Below are positions 1,941 to 13,332 of a stretch of 47,273 bases of DNA, piece by piece. Each line of letters opens with the position of its first letter. Positions within the stretch are counted from its first letter, which is position 1. The DNA is from Marinilabiliales bacterium (lineage in GTDB: Bacteria; Bacteroidota; Bacteroidia; Bacteroidales; PUMT01). Where the stretch lies: NCBI GenBank assembly GCA_007695015.1, contig REEN01000019.1:1-47273 (forward strand). The letters are read 5' to 3'. The notes under the pieces were generated by a model. That model was not told where the DNA came from, did no database searches, and saw only the letters and a program-made list of their open reading frames with translations. Position numbers and translations under genes: made by a program.

Positions 1941-3224
1941 CTACTCAATCAGCCCGGCCAGCGCTGCCCCGAGCAGGCTGGAGTTGTCCACTTCGGTAAA
2001 TTCAACGTACCGTTTCTTTTCCCCGGTAAGGTAATCACTGAAATACCCTTCAAAACGCTGCTTCAGATTGTGGAGTTTGTAAAAGGTGGTGCCCTCGATG
2101 GTCATCATCACAGGTTTATCGGGTGACTGACCTTTGCCGCATTTCAGGACTACCGCGGCGAGATTTGCAGCAACAAGCTTTGCAGCCCTGTCGACCAGGG
2201 TGTCGATTATCGCCCGGCAGGCTTCAGCGTCCTCCCTGCCTGTGAAGCATCCGGCCAGAACATTGCTGTTGCCCGTTATGCCCGCAGCAAAGAGGCCGGC
2301 ATCCTCAGAAGAGAGCTTTTCAACTTTTGCCAGCTTTTCTGAAGCTTCAGGAGAAAACAGCCCCTCTCCGGCAGCCTCCTTAAGCACATGGAGGCAAAGG
2401 GGACCGAAATACCCACCTGAAAACATCTTCTCAAAGGAATAATTACCCGGGTTCCCGGTGGTGTTGTCAAAACCAACGTCAAGGGAGGTACGGGGCGCCC
2501 TGGAGAAATTGCCCGACTCTATATTTATTATCTGGCTCCTGGTGTTGTCAAGCTCACGGTTCTTCCTGATTGCAGAGTTGCTCTCAATATAACAGGTGTT
2601 TGTGCCTGTTCCCAGTATAAAACCTATGAAGGAGCTGTATGACCTGCCGAAGCTTTCTGATTTGCCTGCCAGGAGGGTTGCAACAGTGTCATTCAGCAGC
2701 ACTATCGGTTTTTCGGGCATTCCAAGGGTCTGCAGCAATGTTTTTCCCACAAGCTTCCCCACCACTTCGGGAGCCTGCACCTCCTTGCAGAACTGCAGGA
2801 GTATGCCGTCCCTGTCGGGCAATATCTCTGTGGGATAAGAAAAACAGAAACCGATCCGGTCAGCTTGCTCGGCCAGCGGCCTGATATAATCAGCCAGGGT
2901 CCCGAAGAACTCGCTTGCCGAAATCTCACCGTCAAGCCCGGGCATACCCCGGTTTACGATCTCAAAGGGCTCAGGCCGGCCCGACTTGTCAAATTTTACA
3001 AGAGCGGCCCTGAAGTTGGTGCCCCCCGCATCGATGGCCAGTACCGGCACCTCTTTAAGGAACTCATTGTCTGCCTCTATATAGGTCGGTATCATACGGA
3101 GGGAGCCCTCCGCCCCTGTCAGCCCCTTTTCCATCTCATCGGTAAAGTCAGTGATAAGGGTATCAATATCTACATCTTCTGCTCTTAGCTTGTGTGTCTT
3201 CAAAAATTGTTCTGCTCTGCTCAT
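1941..3224 (-). CDS. Hexokinase (eukaryotic-type, HK family)
   Basis: This 427-residue cytoplasmic enzyme is predicted to phosphorylate hexoses such as glucose with ATP. It belongs to the eukaryotic-type hexokinase family, not the ROK or Glk glucokinases. The phosphate-1 loop is LAIDAGGTNFRAA (D65-R72), the sugar-binding segment is GFCFSYP (125-131), the catalytic aspartate is D179 in LNDTVATL, and a GTGTN loop is at 205-209. A glutamate in INIESGNF and the C-terminal SSLLGAAL helix complete the fold. The length suits a single-domain hexokinase of about 50 kDa; such genes are known from Bacteroides. It starts 43 bp downstream of a putative glycosidase gene on the same strand, so the pair may release and then phosphorylate a sugar. 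Confidence 0.93.
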   Translation of the reverse strand: MSRAEQFLKTHKLRAEDVDIDTLITDFTDEMEKGLTGAEGSLRMIPTYIEADNEFLKEVPVLAIDAGGTNFRAALVKFDKSGRPEPFEIVNRGMPGLDGEISASEFFGTLADYIRPLAEQADRIGFCFSYPTEILPDRDGILLQFCKEVQAPEVVGKLVGKTLLQTLGMPEKPIVLLNDTVATLLAGKSESFGRSYSSFIGFILGTGTNTCYIESNSAIRKNRELDNTRSQIINIESGNFSRAPRTSLDVGFDNTTGNPGNYSFEKMFSGGYFGPLCLHVLKEAAGEGLFSPEASEKLAKVEKLSSEDAGLFAAGITGNSNVLAGCFTGREDAEACRAIIDTLVDRAAKLVAANLAAVVLKCGKGQSPDKPVMMTIEGTTFYKLHNLKQRFEGYFSDYLTGEKKRYVEFTEVDNSSLLGAALAGLIE

Positions 3225-4697: not shown

Positions 4698-6287
4698 ATG
4701 GATAATAGATACGCAAAGACCGGCAAATTCGGGCTTTATGCCCTGGTGGCACTCAGGATTGTGATTGCCTGGCACCTACTGTATGAAGGACTGTCAAAGG
4801 CGCTGACCCCTGAGTGGACATCGGCCGGTTTTCTCTCAATATCGGCCTGGATATTCGCCCCGGCATTCCACTGGATAGCCGGCAACGCACTGGCACTGGC
4901 CATAGTTGATATTATCAATATTGCAGGGCTTATACTGATCGGTTGTGCATTATTCATTGGAATTCTTGACAGGGCAGCGGCCATATGCGGTATGGCCCTG
5001 ATCGGGCTATACTGGCTGGCCAATCCGCCGCTTGTGGGGGTGGGAATGGGTGTTGTTACTGAGGGCAATTACCTGATAGTGGACAAGAACATGGTGCAGT
5101 TTTTCGCTCTCCTCCTCCTTGCCCTTATCCCCACCGGCAGGTATATCGGACTGGCGCATTTTTTCAAAGCAAACCGCAACAGGAGAATGGAAATGGAGGT
5201 CAGGACAACCCCTGATGAGACCGGCACAACTGATGAGACCGGCACACCTGGTGAACCGGCACCAAACTATACACTTGACCGCCGCACATTGTTGCGGGGA
5301 CTGGCAACATTGCCTTTCATGGGGGCATTCGGTCTGGCATTCCTGAAGATGAAAAGATGGAAGAGCTACGAGGAGCAGAACCTGGTGGACGCAATGACCG
5401 GTGCAAGCGCCAAAATACTTGATGTAGCCAGCCTTAATGACCTGAGTGAACCTATATCCAAAGCACTGATAAAAGACAGGGAGTTTAGCCGGCTCATACT
5501 GGGAGGGAACCTTCTTTCAGGCTGGGCACACAGCCGCGACCTGATATATGTATCGCAGCTTGTCAAGGCATACCACCAGAAAGAGAAAATATTTGCAACC
5601 CTGTATCTTGCAGAGAGGTGCGGGGTGAACACATTGCTTACCAACCCGATACTGTGCTCGCTTATTGAAGAATACTGGAAGAGAGGCATAGGCAGGATCC
5701 AGTTTATATCAGACTGTGCTGGGCTGGTTTACGATGCAAAGGGAGCCAGTCCCATGCCTTTCGATCAGTATATGGACAGCATCAAAAGAGCAATAGATAC
5801 GGGAGCGGTTGCCTGCTACATACAGGGTGAAACGGCCGATTACTATATGGAGCGGGGCAATGTTGATGCAATTGCAAAGGTGATGGATTATATTAAGAGC
5901 AGGGGAGTGATTTGCGGCATTGGCGCCCACAGGATCGAAACAATCAAGGCATGTGTGGAAGCCGGACTGGAAACCGATTTCTGGATGAAGACCCTGCATC
6001 ACCACAACTACTGGTCGGCAAGACACCCCCAGTGGCATGACAACCTTTACTGCTATGACCCCGCAAAGACCATTAATTACATGAAACAGCTCCCTGAACC
6101 CTTCATTGCCTTCAAGGTGTTGGCAGCCGGAGCCATCCACCCCAGAGATGGCTTCAGGTATGCATTTGAGAACGGGGCTGATTTTGTATGTGCCGGCATG
6201 TACGATTTTCAGATGGTTGATGATGTAAATATCGCCTGTGAGATATTAAACGGCGATATTAAACGTGACCGGCCCTGGAGGGCATAA
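4698..6287 (+). CDS. DoxX-like membrane domain fused through a twin-arginine segment to a TIM-barrel-like domain
   Basis: I place the start at 4698 (MDNRYAKTGK), giving 529 residues; the frame stays open upstream to 4593, but that stretch reads through the tandem repeats. Residues 12-150 form about four membrane helices with a DoxX/MauE-like pattern (LYEGLSK, LDRAAAICG, TEGNYLIVDKNMVQ). A low-complexity linker with repeated DETGT follows (173-187). LDRRTLLRGLATLPFMGAFG at 193-212 then resembles a twin-arginine signal with RR at 195-196. Residues 230-529 form a soluble alpha/beta domain that looks like a TIM barrel, with a histidine-rich segment (LHHHNYWSARHPQWHDN, 433-449). I do not recognise the enzyme family. 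If the twin arginine works, the C-terminal domain would lie in the periplasm, tethered to the membrane. Confidence 0.75.
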   Translation: MDNRYAKTGKFGLYALVALRIVIAWHLLYEGLSKALTPEWTSAGFLSISAWIFAPAFHWIAGNALALAIVDIINIAGLILIGCALFIGILDRAAAICGMALIGLYWLANPPLVGVGMGVVTEGNYLIVDKNMVQFFALLLLALIPTGRYIGLAHFFKANRNRRMEMEVRTTPDETGTTDETGTPGEPAPNYTLDRRTLLRGLATLPFMGAFGLAFLKMKRWKSYEEQNLVDAMTGASAKILDVASLNDLSEPISKALIKDREFSRLILGGNLLSGWAHSRDLIYVSQLVKAYHQKEKIFATLYLAERCGVNTLLTNPILCSLIEEYWKRGIGRIQFISDCAGLVYDAKGASPMPFDQYMDSIKRAIDTGAVACYIQGETADYYMERGNVDAIAKVMDYIKSRGVICGIGAHRIETIKACVEAGLETDFWMKTLHHHNYWSARHPQWHDNLYCYDPAKTINYMKQLPEPFIAFKVLAAGAIHPRDGFRYAFENGADFVCAGMYDFQMVDDVNIACEILNGDIKRDRPWRA

Positions 6288-7805: not shown

Positions 7806-9296
7806 CTAAAACCTGTAGCCCATGGTAAAATATCCACCGGTATTATATACACGGGTACCCTGTATGTTCGAAATATCCGTAAGACCAATTCGCCAGGTAT
7901 AAGCTACCTGGACCTTCATTACCTCCATTCCAAAACCGAAATTGAGCCCCCACTCCTGTGAAGGATGGAAATTGCCGAAATCAGGGCCAATACCTTCATC
8001 ACTTCCGGCAAAGCTGTGTCTGAAATACCCGCCGGCAATCGGATAGGCCCTGACCAGTCCCCCGTCGTCACCGGCCATATAAAGGTGGAGATTCAAAGGC
8101 AATGTCAGTGAGTGTTGCCTGTATTTACCCCACTGAGATTGGCTTCCGTTGAAGTCATAGAGTAACTCCGACTGCAGAGCAAACTTCTGACCGAACTGCA
8201 TCCTGAAAAACAATCCTGTTGCAAATGCAAAGAGGCCGTCAGCCTGGAAGAATTCATCGGGATACCTGTGATGAGTAGAACCCAGATGTGCGAGAACTCC
8301 CGAGTGCAGGCGGATACCCCAGGGACTCATGTGCCTTGCAAATCTCGCAGAGGGCATCAAATCCGGCATAACCGACATCTCTGCAACCAATGTACCAAGA
8401 TAATCTGTAATAAGGGCCATCCCATCATAGTCCAAAAGTTCGTATCTGTCACCGGGCTTATGATAGGGCGACTTGAGTCCTGTAAAGGCCTGTGCCGCAG
8501 GTATGCCCGCCTCACCAAACGGCCGCGTATCAGTCCGCGCCTCTATCTCAGATGTGACACGCGACAAATCCAGGCCATGTAATACCGCGACCTCCCGTGC
8601 AAGGTCAATACCCCCTTCCAGGGTCCCGATCCCCCTGAGGTGCAACCCGTTGTTTGCCTCATACATTCCGACCATATCAAGTGAGAACATCATCCTGATC
8701 TTTTCCGTATCAAAATATTCAATGTCCTGCAAGAACCTTTCGGCTCCGAGCAGTCCGCTCTCCTCGGCATCAAATGCAATAAAAATAATGCTGCGCCCGA
8801 ATGTGCCGGGATTGCCGGCAAAATGGCGGGCAAGCTCAATCATTGCCGCCGTTCCCGAGGCATTGTCATCGGCTCCGGGATAGATGATCCGCTCACCGTT
8901 CCTGTACTCGTAACCAAGATGGTCATAGTGTGCGCCTATCACGATAAACTCATCCTTCAAAACAGGGTCTGAACCAGGCAGGTATCCCACCACATTGGTG
9001 GCGGGCACCCTTGCAAGGCCTATCCGCAGGTCCATATGCTGGAAATAATCATCGCCGGGCGGTTGAAGGCCTATTGATCCGAACTCCTCGGCAATGTAAT
9101 GCTTGGCAATGATCTTGCCCTCAGTACCAAGCCCCCTTCCCTCCAGAGAGTCTGAAGCGAGAAAAGATACATGTGCTTCGAGTCTTCTGGCAAGGTCGGT
9201 AATCCCAAAGCTGTTTTCAGCAAACAAAAGATGCCTGGCAGGCAGGAAAACCATTAAGGCAAGGAGCAGTAACCTAATTGTATTTTTAACCTTCAT
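7806..9296 (-). CDS. M28 family metallopeptidase fused to a C-terminal outer-membrane beta-barrel
   Basis: After a signal peptide (1 to about 26), residues 33-310 form a complete M28 zinc peptidase. GAHYDHLG gives H123 and D125, GADDNASG gives D143, DAEESGLLG gives E178 and E179, LDMVGM gives D207, and SPYHKPGD gives H279. All metal ligands and the general base are therefore present. From about 320 to 496 the sequence changes to alternating polar/aromatic strands with long turns (LFFRMQFGQKFALQSELLYD, WGLNFGFGMEVMKVQ) and ends in YFTMGYRF, a terminal phenylalanine typical of outer-membrane barrels. Usual M28 aminopeptidases of about 300-500 residues lack such a barrel. I infer a peptidase anchored to the outer membrane. 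The gene sits 32 bp below the antiporter gene on the same strand. Confidence 0.88.
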   Translation of the reverse strand: MKVKNTIRLLLLALMVFLPARHLLFAENSFGITDLARRLEAHVSFLASDSLEGRGLGTEGKIIAKHYIAEEFGSIGLQPPGDDYFQHMDLRIGLARVPATNVVGYLPGSDPVLKDEFIVIGAHYDHLGYEYRNGERIIYPGADDNASGTAAMIELARHFAGNPGTFGRSIIFIAFDAEESGLLGAERFLQDIEYFDTEKIRMMFSLDMVGMYEANNGLHLRGIGTLEGGIDLAREVAVLHGLDLSRVTSEIEARTDTRPFGEAGIPAAQAFTGLKSPYHKPGDRYELLDYDGMALITDYLGTLVAEMSVMPDLMPSARFARHMSPWGIRLHSGVLAHLGSTHHRYPDEFFQADGLFAFATGLFFRMQFGQKFALQSELLYDFNGSQSQWGKYRQHSLTLPLNLHLYMAGDDGGLVRAYPIAGGYFRHSFAGSDEGIGPDFGNFHPSQEWGLNFGFGMEVMKVQVAYTWRIGLTDISNIQGTRVYNTGGYFTMGYRF

Positions 9297-11292: not shown

Positions 11293-13332
11293 ATGAAACT
11301 TCATGAACTAAAACTGGCTGCATTAATTACATTGCTTGTTCTGTCATTTATTACTCCGGCTGCTGATGGCCAGGGAATGACACCCTACGACATTTTTAAC
11401 CTTAAGGATGTCTCCGAGGCAGCCGTTTCACCAGACCAACAGCACATTGCCTACACGGTCAATGTTCCGCGGCCTTTCACCGGCAGTCCGGGACCTGATT
11501 ACAGGGAGCTTTATGTCTACAGCATCTCAACCGGTGAGATTACACCCCTTATTACCGGGACCAACAGGTTATTCTCACTCTCATGGACCCCTGATGGCAG
11601 GGTGGCCTTCAGGTATACCGGTCCGCATGCCTCAGGATTCCAGATTTTTGCGATTGCCCCTGAAGGTGGTGAACCGGAGCAGCTGACCCGGTTTGAGAGG
11701 TCGGTCGGATCATATGAGTTTGCCGGCAAAGACCTGCTGACCTTCGTTGCCGCATCGGGACAGGACCCGGAAAAAGCAAGACTGCTGGAGATGGGTTTTG
11801 ATGCTGAGATTTATGAGGAAGAGTACCTTGACATGAACCTTTATGTTTATGATCTCAAAACGCATGAGCACCGTCAGGTAACCAGCGGAGTAACGGTTTT
11901 TGAATACTCTGTCAGCCCTGACGGTCGCTATGCCGCCGCCGCAATCGCTGAAAAGAACCTCGTCGACTACTCCTTCATGTTCAAGGACATATACCTGGTC
12001 AACCTCGAAAATGGAGAAAAAACAATGCTGATTGAGGTTCCGGGCAAGCTGGGCCGGATGGCATGGAGCCCCGACGGCAGCAGGATAGCCTTTGTGGCAG
12101 CCTCACACATCCACGATGCAGTCATTGGCAGCCTCTTTATAGCCAATGTGCCTGAGAACAGGACCTTCACGCAGCTCAGGAACTATGCCGAAGGAATGAG
12201 GGCATCGATAATCAATGCCGCCTGGAAAGATAACAACACCCTGCTCTATGTCTCCGAAGAAGGGGTAGACATGGTGCTTAGCGAGCATGAGACCGCCGCA
12301 CCTGAAAGACGGGTCCTGATTGAGGGCGGGAGACTGGTATTCCGCACATTCAGCCGTTCAGGAGATATTATTGCCCTTTCGGGGAACACAACTGAGCACC
12401 CGAACGAGCTGCACCTCTTTGATCTTGGTACAGGGAGCCTTGATAGACTGACCGATCATAATCCATGGCTTGCCGGCAAGGATATGGGGCGGCAGGAGAT
12501 GATGGTTTACAATGCCAGGGACGGGCTTGACATCGAATCGGTACTTATCTACCCTGTCGGGTATGAGCCCGGGAAGTCATACCCTGTGATCACCTATATA
12601 CATGGCGGACCCGAGGCGGCCAACCAGAACGGATGGGTAACGCGCTACAGTATTTGGGGCCAGGTGGCTGCGGCCCGCGGTTATTTCTTCTTCATGCCTA
12701 ACTACAGGGCAGGTTCGGGACGGGGAGTGGACTTCACCATGGAAGGGTTTGGCGACCTGGTTGGTAAAGAGTATGACGATGTTCTTGACGGGATCGACCA
12801 TCTTATCGATATCGGATATGTTGACAGGGACCGTGTCGGTATCGGCGGAGGCTCCTACGGCGGTTATTTTTCAGCCTGGTCGGCAACCCGTCACACCGAT
12901 AGGTTCGCTGCTTCTGTTGTTTTTGTAGGGATCAGCAACCAGGTATCCAAGCGAAACACCACCGATATCCCGTGGGAGGACTACCTGGTTCACTGGGGCT
13001 TCTGGACACATGAGGAGCCTGAAAAGGTGTGGGGGGCCAGTCCCATCAAATATGCTCCGGGAAGTGTTACCCCGACACTTATACTGCATGGAACGGAAGA
13101 TCCCAGGGTGCCGCCCTCGCAGGGACTTGAGCTTTACAGGAAGCTGAAGCTTCACGGGAAAGCGCCTGTGAGACTTATCTGGTATCCGGGCGAAGGGCAT
13201 GGCAACGCGAAGAACACCAACAGGCTCGACTATATCGTGAGGACCATGGAGTGGTTTGACTGGTACCTCAGAGATAAGGGCCCACGGGATGAAATGCCCC
13301 ATAAATATCCTGAGTTCGAGATTGAAAGGTGA
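11293..13332 (+). CDS. S9 family (prolyl oligopeptidase-like) serine peptidase
   Basis: I start the gene at 11293, where a clear signal peptide begins (MKLHELKLAALITLLVLSF, cleavage near residue 27); the frame is open upstream but lacks signal-like character. The mature 679-residue protein is secreted. Residues 35-400 form a beta-propeller with TolB-like blades (SPDGRYAA, AWSPDGSRIAF). The C-terminal alpha/beta hydrolase domain carries the catalytic triad: S521 in GGGSYGGY, D603 in HGTEDPRVP and H636 in PGEGHG. This layout is that of acylaminoacyl- or dipeptidyl-peptidase-like S9 enzymes. It probably degrades peptides in the periplasm. No type IX sorting domain is visible at the C-terminus. 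Confidence 0.93.
   Translation: MKLHELKLAALITLLVLSFITPAADGQGMTPYDIFNLKDVSEAAVSPDQQHIAYTVNVPRPFTGSPGPDYRELYVYSISTGEITPLITGTNRLFSLSWTPDGRVAFRYTGPHASGFQIFAIAPEGGEPEQLTRFERSVGSYEFAGKDLLTFVAASGQDPEKARLLEMGFDAEIYEEEYLDMNLYVYDLKTHEHRQVTSGVTVFEYSVSPDGRYAAAAIAEKNLVDYSFMFKDIYLVNLENGEKTMLIEVPGKLGRMAWSPDGSRIAFVAASHIHDAVIGSLFIANVPENRTFTQLRNYAEGMRASIINAAWKDNNTLLYVSEEGVDMVLSEHETAAPERRVLIEGGRLVFRTFSRSGDIIALSGNTTEHPNELHLFDLGTGSLDRLTDHNPWLAGKDMGRQEMMVYNARDGLDIESVLIYPVGYEPGKSYPVITYIHGGPEAANQNGWVTRYSIWGQVAAARGYFFFMPNYRAGSGRGVDFTMEGFGDLVGKEYDDVLDGIDHLIDIGYVDRDRVGIGGGSYGGYFSAWSATRHTDRFAASVVFVGISNQVSKRNTTDIPWEDYLVHWGFWTHEEPEKVWGASPIKYAPGSVTPTLILHGTEDPRVPPSQGLELYRKLKLHGKAPVRLIWYPGEGHGNAKNTNRLDYIVRTMEWFDWYLRDKGPRDEMPHKYPEFEIER

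Follow-up and report, generated by a model that had tools for sequence, protein, structure and literature searches.

A candidate flavinylation motif between a DoxX membrane module and a divergent aldo-keto reductase barrel in a predicted exported fusion protein from Marinilabiliales

The 47,273-nucleotide stretch of DNA analysed here (contig REEN01000019.1 of the Marinilabiliales assembly GCA_007695015.1; hereafter, the window) encodes a fusion protein of 529 residues, P0001, which consists, in this order, of a four-helix DoxX domain, a linker, a twin-arginine pair followed by a hydrophobic segment, a motif of the ApbE type, and an alpha/beta barrel. We give somewhat better than even chances to the view that this protein is an exported, membrane-tethered oxidoreductase in which covalently bound flavin mononucleotide (FMN) links an active site similar to that of the aldo-keto reductases (AKRs) to the quinone pool via DoxX. 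Computation gives the order of the domains, the conserved residues, the motif, a barrel fold by prediction, the lack of the AKR catalytic tetrad, and the finding that the genome holds apbE and tatC; Tat export, FMN attachment, quinone use, the direction of electron flow, and the substrate are inferred from these. An earlier note, made from the sequence alone, had suggested a membrane-tethered periplasmic redox or hydrolytic enzyme, and the general idea of an exported, tethered redox enzyme is supported here; the note had overlooked the ApbE-type motif, the other DoxX genes of the genome, and the AKR fold.

The sequence DAMTGAS (residues 231 to 237), located between the helix of the twin-arginine translocation (Tat) type and the barrel, is an exact fit to the pattern D-x-x-[ST]-G-A-[ST]. 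According to the accessible part of PMC12052999, ApbE, a typically periplasmic and membrane-anchored enzyme, places FMN on the final residue of the motif D-x-x-[S/T]-G-A-[S/T], and seven residues suffice as its tag, with threonine favoured over serine, a minor effect of replacing Asp, and about half the efficiency after a Gly-to-Ala change. In an alignment of 102 family members, the exact motif is found in 52 rows and a relaxed version in 82, whereas all 102 end the motif with Ser or Thr. This alignment omits identical open reading frames (ORFs) and those with the barrel match starting before ORF residue 150 (broken or cut at an edge), and its rows are not independent because near-duplicates from overlapping collections remain. 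No second exact copy occurs anywhere in the 54,226 residues of family sequences. Across the neighbourhoods studied, the exact motif is carried by 45 of 91 family genes versus 3 of 863 neighbouring non-family genes (355,237 residues), a density about 110 times that of the neighbours; the gene calls came from a greedy longest-ORF set over 96 stretches, in which some shadow ORFs were chosen (in L072, L075, and L128), so that only 91 family genes were counted. One of the three motif-bearing non-family genes codes for a protein with DUF2271, a domain that is flavinylated by ApbE, as stated in the accessible part of PMC8238504. All three fusions of the source genome carry exact motifs (DAMTGAS, DATTGAT, and DVLSGAT). 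Residues 223 to 243 form the main stretch of the AlphaFold model with a predicted local distance difference test (pLDDT) score below 50, and the flanks of the motif are variable; a conserved short motif within a disordered tether fits a peptide recognized by another protein. Judged from these patterns, flavinylation, taken alone, is quite likely, and a motif of this type gives concrete form to the idea that the two halves of the protein are coupled by redox chemistry.

The twin-arginine pair is also conserved. R195 is kept in all 102 rows, R196 in 101, and P206 in 102, so that the pair is near-invariant and not poorly conserved, the outcome that the earlier note had named as speaking against an internal Tat signal. 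The fuller pattern RRxx[LIVMF][KR] fits 75 rows. The helix that follows the arginines is weakly hydrophobic (hydropathy peak of 1.6 over residues 198 to 216), and a basic residue stands directly past it in 100 of the 102 rows; a basic residue behind the signal helix is a feature of Tat signals that avoid the Sec pathway. Tat substrates combine a twin arginine with a weakly hydrophobic helix, and the window protein has both. A single TatC is encoded in the genome (E value of 2.7e-65), as the note had asked to be checked. Going by these sequence features, the C-terminal part of the protein would be exported by Tat.

The fusion is not an isolated case. The source genome carries two additional fusions, on G000:C41 and G000:C74 (the latter ends at the contig edge), and a scan of species genomes confirmed at least 560 relatives of some part of the query among 583 stretches; some of these may be DoxX alone, as one of the search patterns sits in DoxX. 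Each of the best 80 of these relatives matches the query along nearly the whole length, and by their titles they come from Bacteroidota, KSB1, Calditrichota, Acidobacteriota, Planctomycetota, Hydrogenedentota, Kiritimatiellota, Lentisphaerae, and Verrucomicrobia. That the fusion arose by chance or in assembly was considered and is ruled out by the further fusions of the genome, by these near full-length matches, and by 31 further candidates. All 31 share the barrel, and 28 of them have the relaxed motif within the scanned stretch (it was not found there in L201, L202, and L219, the last of which is cut, with its motif stretch outside the scan; these candidates overlap in part with the earlier rows). 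Among 60 near relatives, 25 of the 27 strong barrel matches are in frame with DoxX, the two exceptions being one where the contig ends (G010:C122) and one next to a frame break (G008:C106). There were 30 barrel matches in all, the three weakest, outside the 27, being a distant stand-alone protein and two short G003 fragments; the stand-alone protein (L057) has a Tat-like signal of its own and, by eye, lacks the motif. The DoxX module, fused or alone, was detected in 87 of 393 genomes of the order and in 9 of 395 genomes of the phylum, counting the source genome.

Surveying the two halves as separate genes, as the earlier note had advised, revealed that the barrel is nearly always fused to DoxX, and that DoxX also occurs alone, beside genes for Gfo/Idh/MocA proteins (assigned by Pfam) with Tat signals. 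At all 19 loci examined, the stand-alone DoxX gene lies directly upstream of such a gene on the same strand (all 8 loci found outside the source genome, in the 395-genome sample of the phylum, and all 11 examined, out of 17 stand-alone DoxX matches, in the source genome and its near relatives); one of these pairs is in the source genome itself. The downstream proteins open with a signal similar to RRxxxKxLAxxPxxG in all 19 cases. Given these 19 loci, the internal Tat signal of the fusion is most simply viewed as having been N-terminal in a downstream gene before this gene was fused to the upstream DoxX, and it looks like the product of the fusion of a DoxX-Tat gene pair. No description of the DoxX-Gfo/Idh/MocA two-gene unit was found in the literature covered, which did not extend to subscription journals and preprints.

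The C-terminal domain, of a family that the note could not name, is a divergent AKR barrel, according to its predicted structure. The structure prediction and fold search proposed in the note bore out its alpha/beta domain: the AlphaFold model of residues 251 to 523 has pLDDT values mostly above 90, and the closest solved structure is PA4992 (4exa/4exb), with a Foldseek E value of 2.7e-7 for 4exa and, in VIA-align, a Z score of 21.1 over 240 aligned residues at 3.0 A and 14% identity. The other solved-structure matches listed have Z scores of 17.7 to 19.6 and include L-galactose dehydrogenases; judging by their titles, the 50 matches listed are presumably all AKRs or potassium-channel beta subunits of like fold. 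A comparison by hhalign of the barrel profile with nine AKR-like genes, one located in the window and eight in the neighbourhoods (the first assigned by Pfam, the others by blastp, with L064 omitted), gave an E value of 1.3e-4 and a probability of 54 over 182 columns. The view that the fold of this domain is an unknown one was rejected on the strength of the AKR matches. Weak partial hits to biotin carboxylase, given by a single-sequence search of solved structures (best E value of 0.0085, to domain residues 177 to 269), did not recur in the profile search, the best hit of which (E value of 0.059) was another protein, and find no support in the fold search. The domain is divergent: at E values of up to 1, the Pfam AKR family PF00248 had no match to the window domain, and 1 of 37 members scanned matched it (E value of 0.039). 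Pfam scans covered 37 of 81 rows for the barrel and 23 of 81 for the DoxX module.

The AKR catalytic tetrad, Asp-Tyr-Lys-His, is absent from the barrel. In the nine AKR-like genes, D49, Y54, K82, and H122 are invariant; in the family, the corresponding positions hold L/I/N314 for Asp, a gap for Tyr, D/Q339 for Lys, and Q/H376 for His, which makes the standard hydride chemistry of AKRs unlikely. The barrel has a conserved set of its own: N271, H278, R280, D281, Y284, H411, T432, and K473 are invariant in the 102 rows, and D503 and Q505 (101 rows each), H434 (99), and K431 (95) nearly so. The histidine-rich stretch singled out in the note is present at residues 434 to 447 and only partly conserved (H434 in 99, Y438 in 100, and W439 in 99 of the 102 rows). 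The last strands of the barrel have the consensus KVLAAGAIxPxxGFxYAFENGADFICVGM, which we take to resemble the phosphate-binding end of barrels that bind FMN or inosine monophosphate (IMP). Weak matches to IMP dehydrogenase, some placed on these last strands and some without a stated place, hint at a phosphate site of the IMP dehydrogenase/FMN type in the last two strands, and with this resemblance the docking of a tethered FMN within the barrel is plausible.

The N-terminal domain had been read in the note as a four-helix DoxX-like domain, and this assignment holds. PF07681 (DoxX) was matched by all 23 family N-terminal modules scanned (E values of up to 0.1), and the AlphaFold helices are confident. 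The window protein alone scores 14.3 bits, below the Pfam cut-off of 23.6, and DoxX is its sole Pfam match at E values of up to 10; five relatives, fused or stand-alone, exceed the cut-off with 27.5 to 30.3 bits. R20, W25, Y29, E30, G31, K34, and P110 vary little or not at all in the family alignment.

Put together, these features suggest the following sequence of events. The DoxX helices would insert into the inner membrane, and the barrel would fold in the cytoplasm and be exported by Tat via the internal signal, the helix of which would remain as a fifth membrane anchor. In the periplasm, the flavin transferase ApbE would put FMN on Ser237 of the disordered tether. The tethered FMN would then exchange electrons with the AKR-like active site on one side and with quinone at DoxX on the other. 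In this way, an extracytoplasmic substrate, perhaps a sugar or sugar derivative, would be oxidised or reduced with the quinone pool as the other partner of the reaction.

An alternative that we regard as unlikely, yet as the strongest of the competing ones, is that the barrel is an exported nicotinamide enzyme folded around tightly bound NAD(P), with FMN or DoxX merely re-oxidising or re-reducing this cofactor and the flavin acting as a shuttle instead of the catalytic group. AKRs bind NAD(P)H, the Tat system exports folded, cofactor-loaded proteins, and the periplasmic glucose-fructose oxidoreductase folds in the cytoplasm around its tightly bound NAD(P). The same DoxX-Tat layout serves, at all 19 split loci, Gfo/Idh/MocA proteins with the NAD-binding Rossmann domain of Pfam, and the conserved D503, Q505, and N511 lie past the last strand of the barrel, presumably where AKRs hold their cofactor. 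The replacement of the tetrad speaks against this alternative, as does the absence of the relaxed flavin motif, within 75 residues from the twin arginine, from all 19 of the Gfo/Idh/MocA partners, so that the fusion and Gfo types need not work alike.

Several observations weigh against the proposed FMN-linked oxidoreductase. The motif is not universal: 50 of the 102 rows depart from its exact form, with SA[ST] instead of GA[ST] in 20, only the Asp absent in 7, and other deviations in 23, the last being, by eye, largely from Acidobacteriota and Planctomycetota. The loop of residues 271 to 300, which holds several of the invariant residues, is modelled less confidently than the remainder of the barrel (block means of pLDDT of 71, 63, and 83). 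The quinone role of DoxX draws on knowledge of the family and on a non-significant structural resemblance: the module can be superimposed on TMEM35A (Z score of 12.2, 119 residues, 3.0 A), on the membrane domain of the vitamin K-dependent gamma-carboxylase (Z score of 9.1, 123 residues, 3.2 A), and on vitamin K epoxide reductase (VKOR; Z scores around 5 to 6), all within the range that unrelated helical bundles may reach, and its Foldseek E values are insignificant (best, 0.69); these likenesses are a hint at quinone binding. The substrate has minority neighbourhoods as its sole pointer, which indicate sugar or polysaccharide metabolism and do not fix it.

The distribution of ApbE is likewise of little help to the proposal. 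The source genome encodes a single ApbE (E value of 1.2e-88), with an N terminus that looks by eye like that of a lipoprotein; its gene shares a contig with NqrC- and NqrB-type genes, whose products, with motifs that include DGFSGAT and DGISGAT, are other likely substrates. The idea that ApbE has no other substrates in this genome was ruled out by these NqrC/RnfG- and NqrB-like genes. ApbE was found in 47 of 48 genomes with relatives (these cover 50 of the 80 loci, with L105 excluded), the exception being G069, and also in 55 of 60 relatives picked irrespective of the fusion; because of this control, its presence is needed but uninformative, and was dropped as proof of flavinylation. An apbE gene adjoins the fusion in 1 of the 80 loci within the flanks available, which reach at least 10 kb in 57 loci and 3.5 kb in the shortest, so that adjacency could be missed where the flanks are short. 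The locus in question, L128:9920-12663 (+) from an Acidobacteria metagenome-assembled genome (MAG), speaks for the proposal: apbE comes right after the fusion gene there and has the same orientation, with possible ATG starts at 11518 and 11596, 12 and 90 bases past the last sense codon of the fusion (11506). Its ApbE is 33% identical to that of the source genome (E value of 2e-41), its fusion has the motif HAITGAT, in which His replaces Asp, and the chance of finding one such neighbour in 80 loci is roughly 7 percent by a hand estimate.

These points also bear on a slightly less probable alternative, in which DxxSGAT has a structural or processing role in the tether and DoxX serves only to anchor an enzyme that uses no flavin, possibly a metal-dependent one (with H411, H434, and D503 as candidate ligands). 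The departure of about half of the rows from the exact motif and the other likely ApbE substrates of the source genome are compatible with it, and the invariant H278, H411, and K473 together with the near-invariant H434 and D503 could form a metal or acid-base site. Such a role would sit poorly with a conserved stretch in predicted disorder whose sole exceptionless position is the Ser or Thr that would bear FMN, and with the enrichment of the motif over neighbouring genes. It also fits poorly with the behaviour of the motif on a quickly built barrel tree, in which 35 of the 99 inner branches are weak: the exact-motif label needs 22 changes there, with well-supported branches forcing at least 15 of them, and the SA[ST] label needs 13, with at least 9 forced, and the last residue stays Ser or Thr throughout. 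An ordinary membrane segment that inserts independently of Tat, with the arginine pair kept for topology alone, is improbable: although 27 of the 102 rows miss the fuller Tat pattern and fusions behind four membrane helices are atypical Tat clients, the pair persists in 101 rows where a charge rule would tolerate Lys, the helix has basic residues on either side, and similar sequences open separate proteins.

The FMN-linked oxidoreductase could also be one instance of a wider arrangement. A protein encoded at L035:156-2117 (+), on G012:C55, has DoxX, the twin-arginine helix, and the sequence DALSGAT joined to DUF362 and not to the AKR barrel; the only such protein seen, it suggests that the N-terminal part is a portable module. 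With less than even confidence, we raise the possibility of an as yet undescribed class of self-contained, quinone-linked enzymes. In this class, such a module, which combines a DoxX quinone dock with a Tat signal and a flavin tether of seven residues, would wire varied exported enzymes to the respiratory chain, and the barrel would have swapped nicotinamide for flavin chemistry. The clients of the module would be the AKR-like barrel and DUF362, as well as Gfo/Idh/MocA proteins, which are encoded separately and lack the tether, and the FMN on its flexible arm would alternate between docking sites within the barrel and on the membrane.

The extracytosolic carriers flavinylated by ApbE, as covered in the accessible parts of PMC8238504 and PMC11334425, include FMN-bind, NqrB/RnfD, DUF2271, DUF3570, Flavodoxin_4, and FMN_red proteins, and they share with the window protein the motif, its final Ser/Thr, a predicted outside location, and a redox tie to the membrane. 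Unlike those carriers, the window protein has, according to Pfam, neither FMN-bind nor DUF2271 nor another substrate domain described in these parts, and its bare motif lies in a disordered linker that joins a DoxX domain to an AKR-fold barrel. The flavinylated fumarate and urocanate reductases reported in the accessible part of PMC8238504 likewise combine the motif and the enzyme in one polypeptide and connect the respiratory chain to an extracytosolic reaction. The window protein differs from them in its AKR-like catalytic domain and in having the membrane part in the same chain. Those two reductases have another fold. From the AKRs, with which the predicted model shares the barrel topology, it is set apart by the lack of the tetrad, the predicted export, and the identity of just 14-15% to PA4992. 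The actinobacterial Rieske protein, which is inserted by the Sec and Tat pathways combined, likewise has a multi-helix part that is followed by a Tat signal inside the chain and by a redox domain that is exported; its membrane part, cofactor, and enzyme differ from those of the window protein. With DoxX and the DoxD domains of thiosulfate:quinone oxidoreductase, as presented in the accessible parts of PMC6335251 and PMC6930017, the module shares the four helices (6 of the 23 modules scanned also gave a weak DoxD match), and it differs from the domains described there in being joined via a Tat signal to an enzyme. Literature searches for DoxX with ApbE and flavinylation, DoxX with twin-arginine, AKR with flavinylation, and DoxX with MocA turned up no description of this arrangement in the literature covered, the papers that matched being off-topic as judged from their listing, and a search of solved structures found no DoxX-plus-AKR protein, an absence that proves nothing.

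If the proposal is right, ApbE gains a class of substrates without a described flavin domain, the flavin being carried by nothing more than a peptide tether; the widespread and biochemically vague DoxX acquires a role, that of bringing exported enzymes to quinone; and the fusion of a DoxX-Tat gene pair accounts for the internal Tat signal. Surveys that rely on known flavin domains or on apbE neighbourhoods are expected to miss this family because those domains are absent and apbE was found near so few of its genes. The proposal may bear on extracytoplasmic sugar processing in these phyla, given that a minority of relatives adjoin sulfatase-, GH28-, or SusC-like genes. In the 96 stretches, the commonest neighbour clusters by eye were sulfatase-like (13), Gfo/Idh/MocA-like (13), AKR-like (9), and GH28-like (7), and SusC-like genes, also by eye, were seen beside a minority of relatives.

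At L051:4722-5438 (+) and L037:2566-3291 (+), in two genomes, a small gene that by eye is ferredoxin-reductase-like lies near the fusion paralogue on the opposite strand, and its product is a possible electron partner. A Kiritimatiellales MAG has tandem copies of the fusion (L072:9959-13156, + strand, and L072:2013-6221, - strand) a few kilobases from a DUF2271/LVIVD protein with the sequence DAVTGAT and from genes that by eye are NiFe-hydrogenase-like.

Table 1. Parts of the fusion gene, in window coordinates, and the loci with separate DoxX and Tat-signal Gfo/Idh/MocA genes
Feature	Residues or loci	Position	Strand	Basis
Whole gene (P0001), fusion of 529 residues		4698..6287	+	ATG at 4698, stop at 6287, frame uninterrupted
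DoxX four-helix membrane domain	about 10-146	4725..5135	+	Pfam, AlphaFold helices, conservation
Basic stretch and low-complexity Thr/Glu/Pro linker, predicted cytoplasmic	147-193	5136..5276	+	sequence, pLDDT
Internal twin-arginine signal and fifth helix, DRRTLLRGLATLPFMGAFGLAFLKMKR	194-220	5277..5357	+	conservation, signals at split loci
Disordered tether bearing the motif	223-243	5364..5426	+	pLDDT below 50
Candidate ApbE flavinylation site D231-A-M-T-G-A-S237, FMN predicted on Ser237	231-237	5388..5408	+	motif match
AKR-fold barrel, predicted extracytoplasmic	245-529	5430..6284	+	AlphaFold2 (AF2), Foldseek, VIA-align, hhalign
Histidine-rich stretch, HHHNYWSARHPQWH, right behind strand 428-432	H434-H447	5997..6038	+	model, conservation
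Split DoxX and Tat-Gfo loci	L151-L158, L019, L020, L031-L034, L054, L056, L058-L060			

Within the gene (Table 1), the low-complexity linker noticed in the open frame by the earlier note is borne out as a stretch rich in Thr, Glu, and Pro at about residues 160 to 193, with mean pLDDT values of 60 (residues 171 to 180) and 71 (residues 181 to 190). Both neighbours of the fusion gene are on the opposite strand, so that it is probably a single-gene unit. Nearby in the window are genes for a GH2-like and a GH28 glycoside hydrolase (GH), a DUF362 protein, and a hexokinase; an ordinary AKR gene is located farther off. The DUF362 protein (positions 1015-1782, - strand), three genes away from the fusion, stands alone, and DUF362 is also the partner domain in L035. 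The hexokinase (1941-3224, - strand) matches Hexokinase_1 and Hexokinase_2 of Pfam, a mainly eukaryotic type that is encoded here by a bacterium. The protein encoded at 7806-9296 (- strand) combines an M28 peptidase with a C-terminal part similar to an outer-membrane beta-barrel, the latter scoring 26.2 bits with OMP_b-brl_2, slightly below the cut-off of 27.

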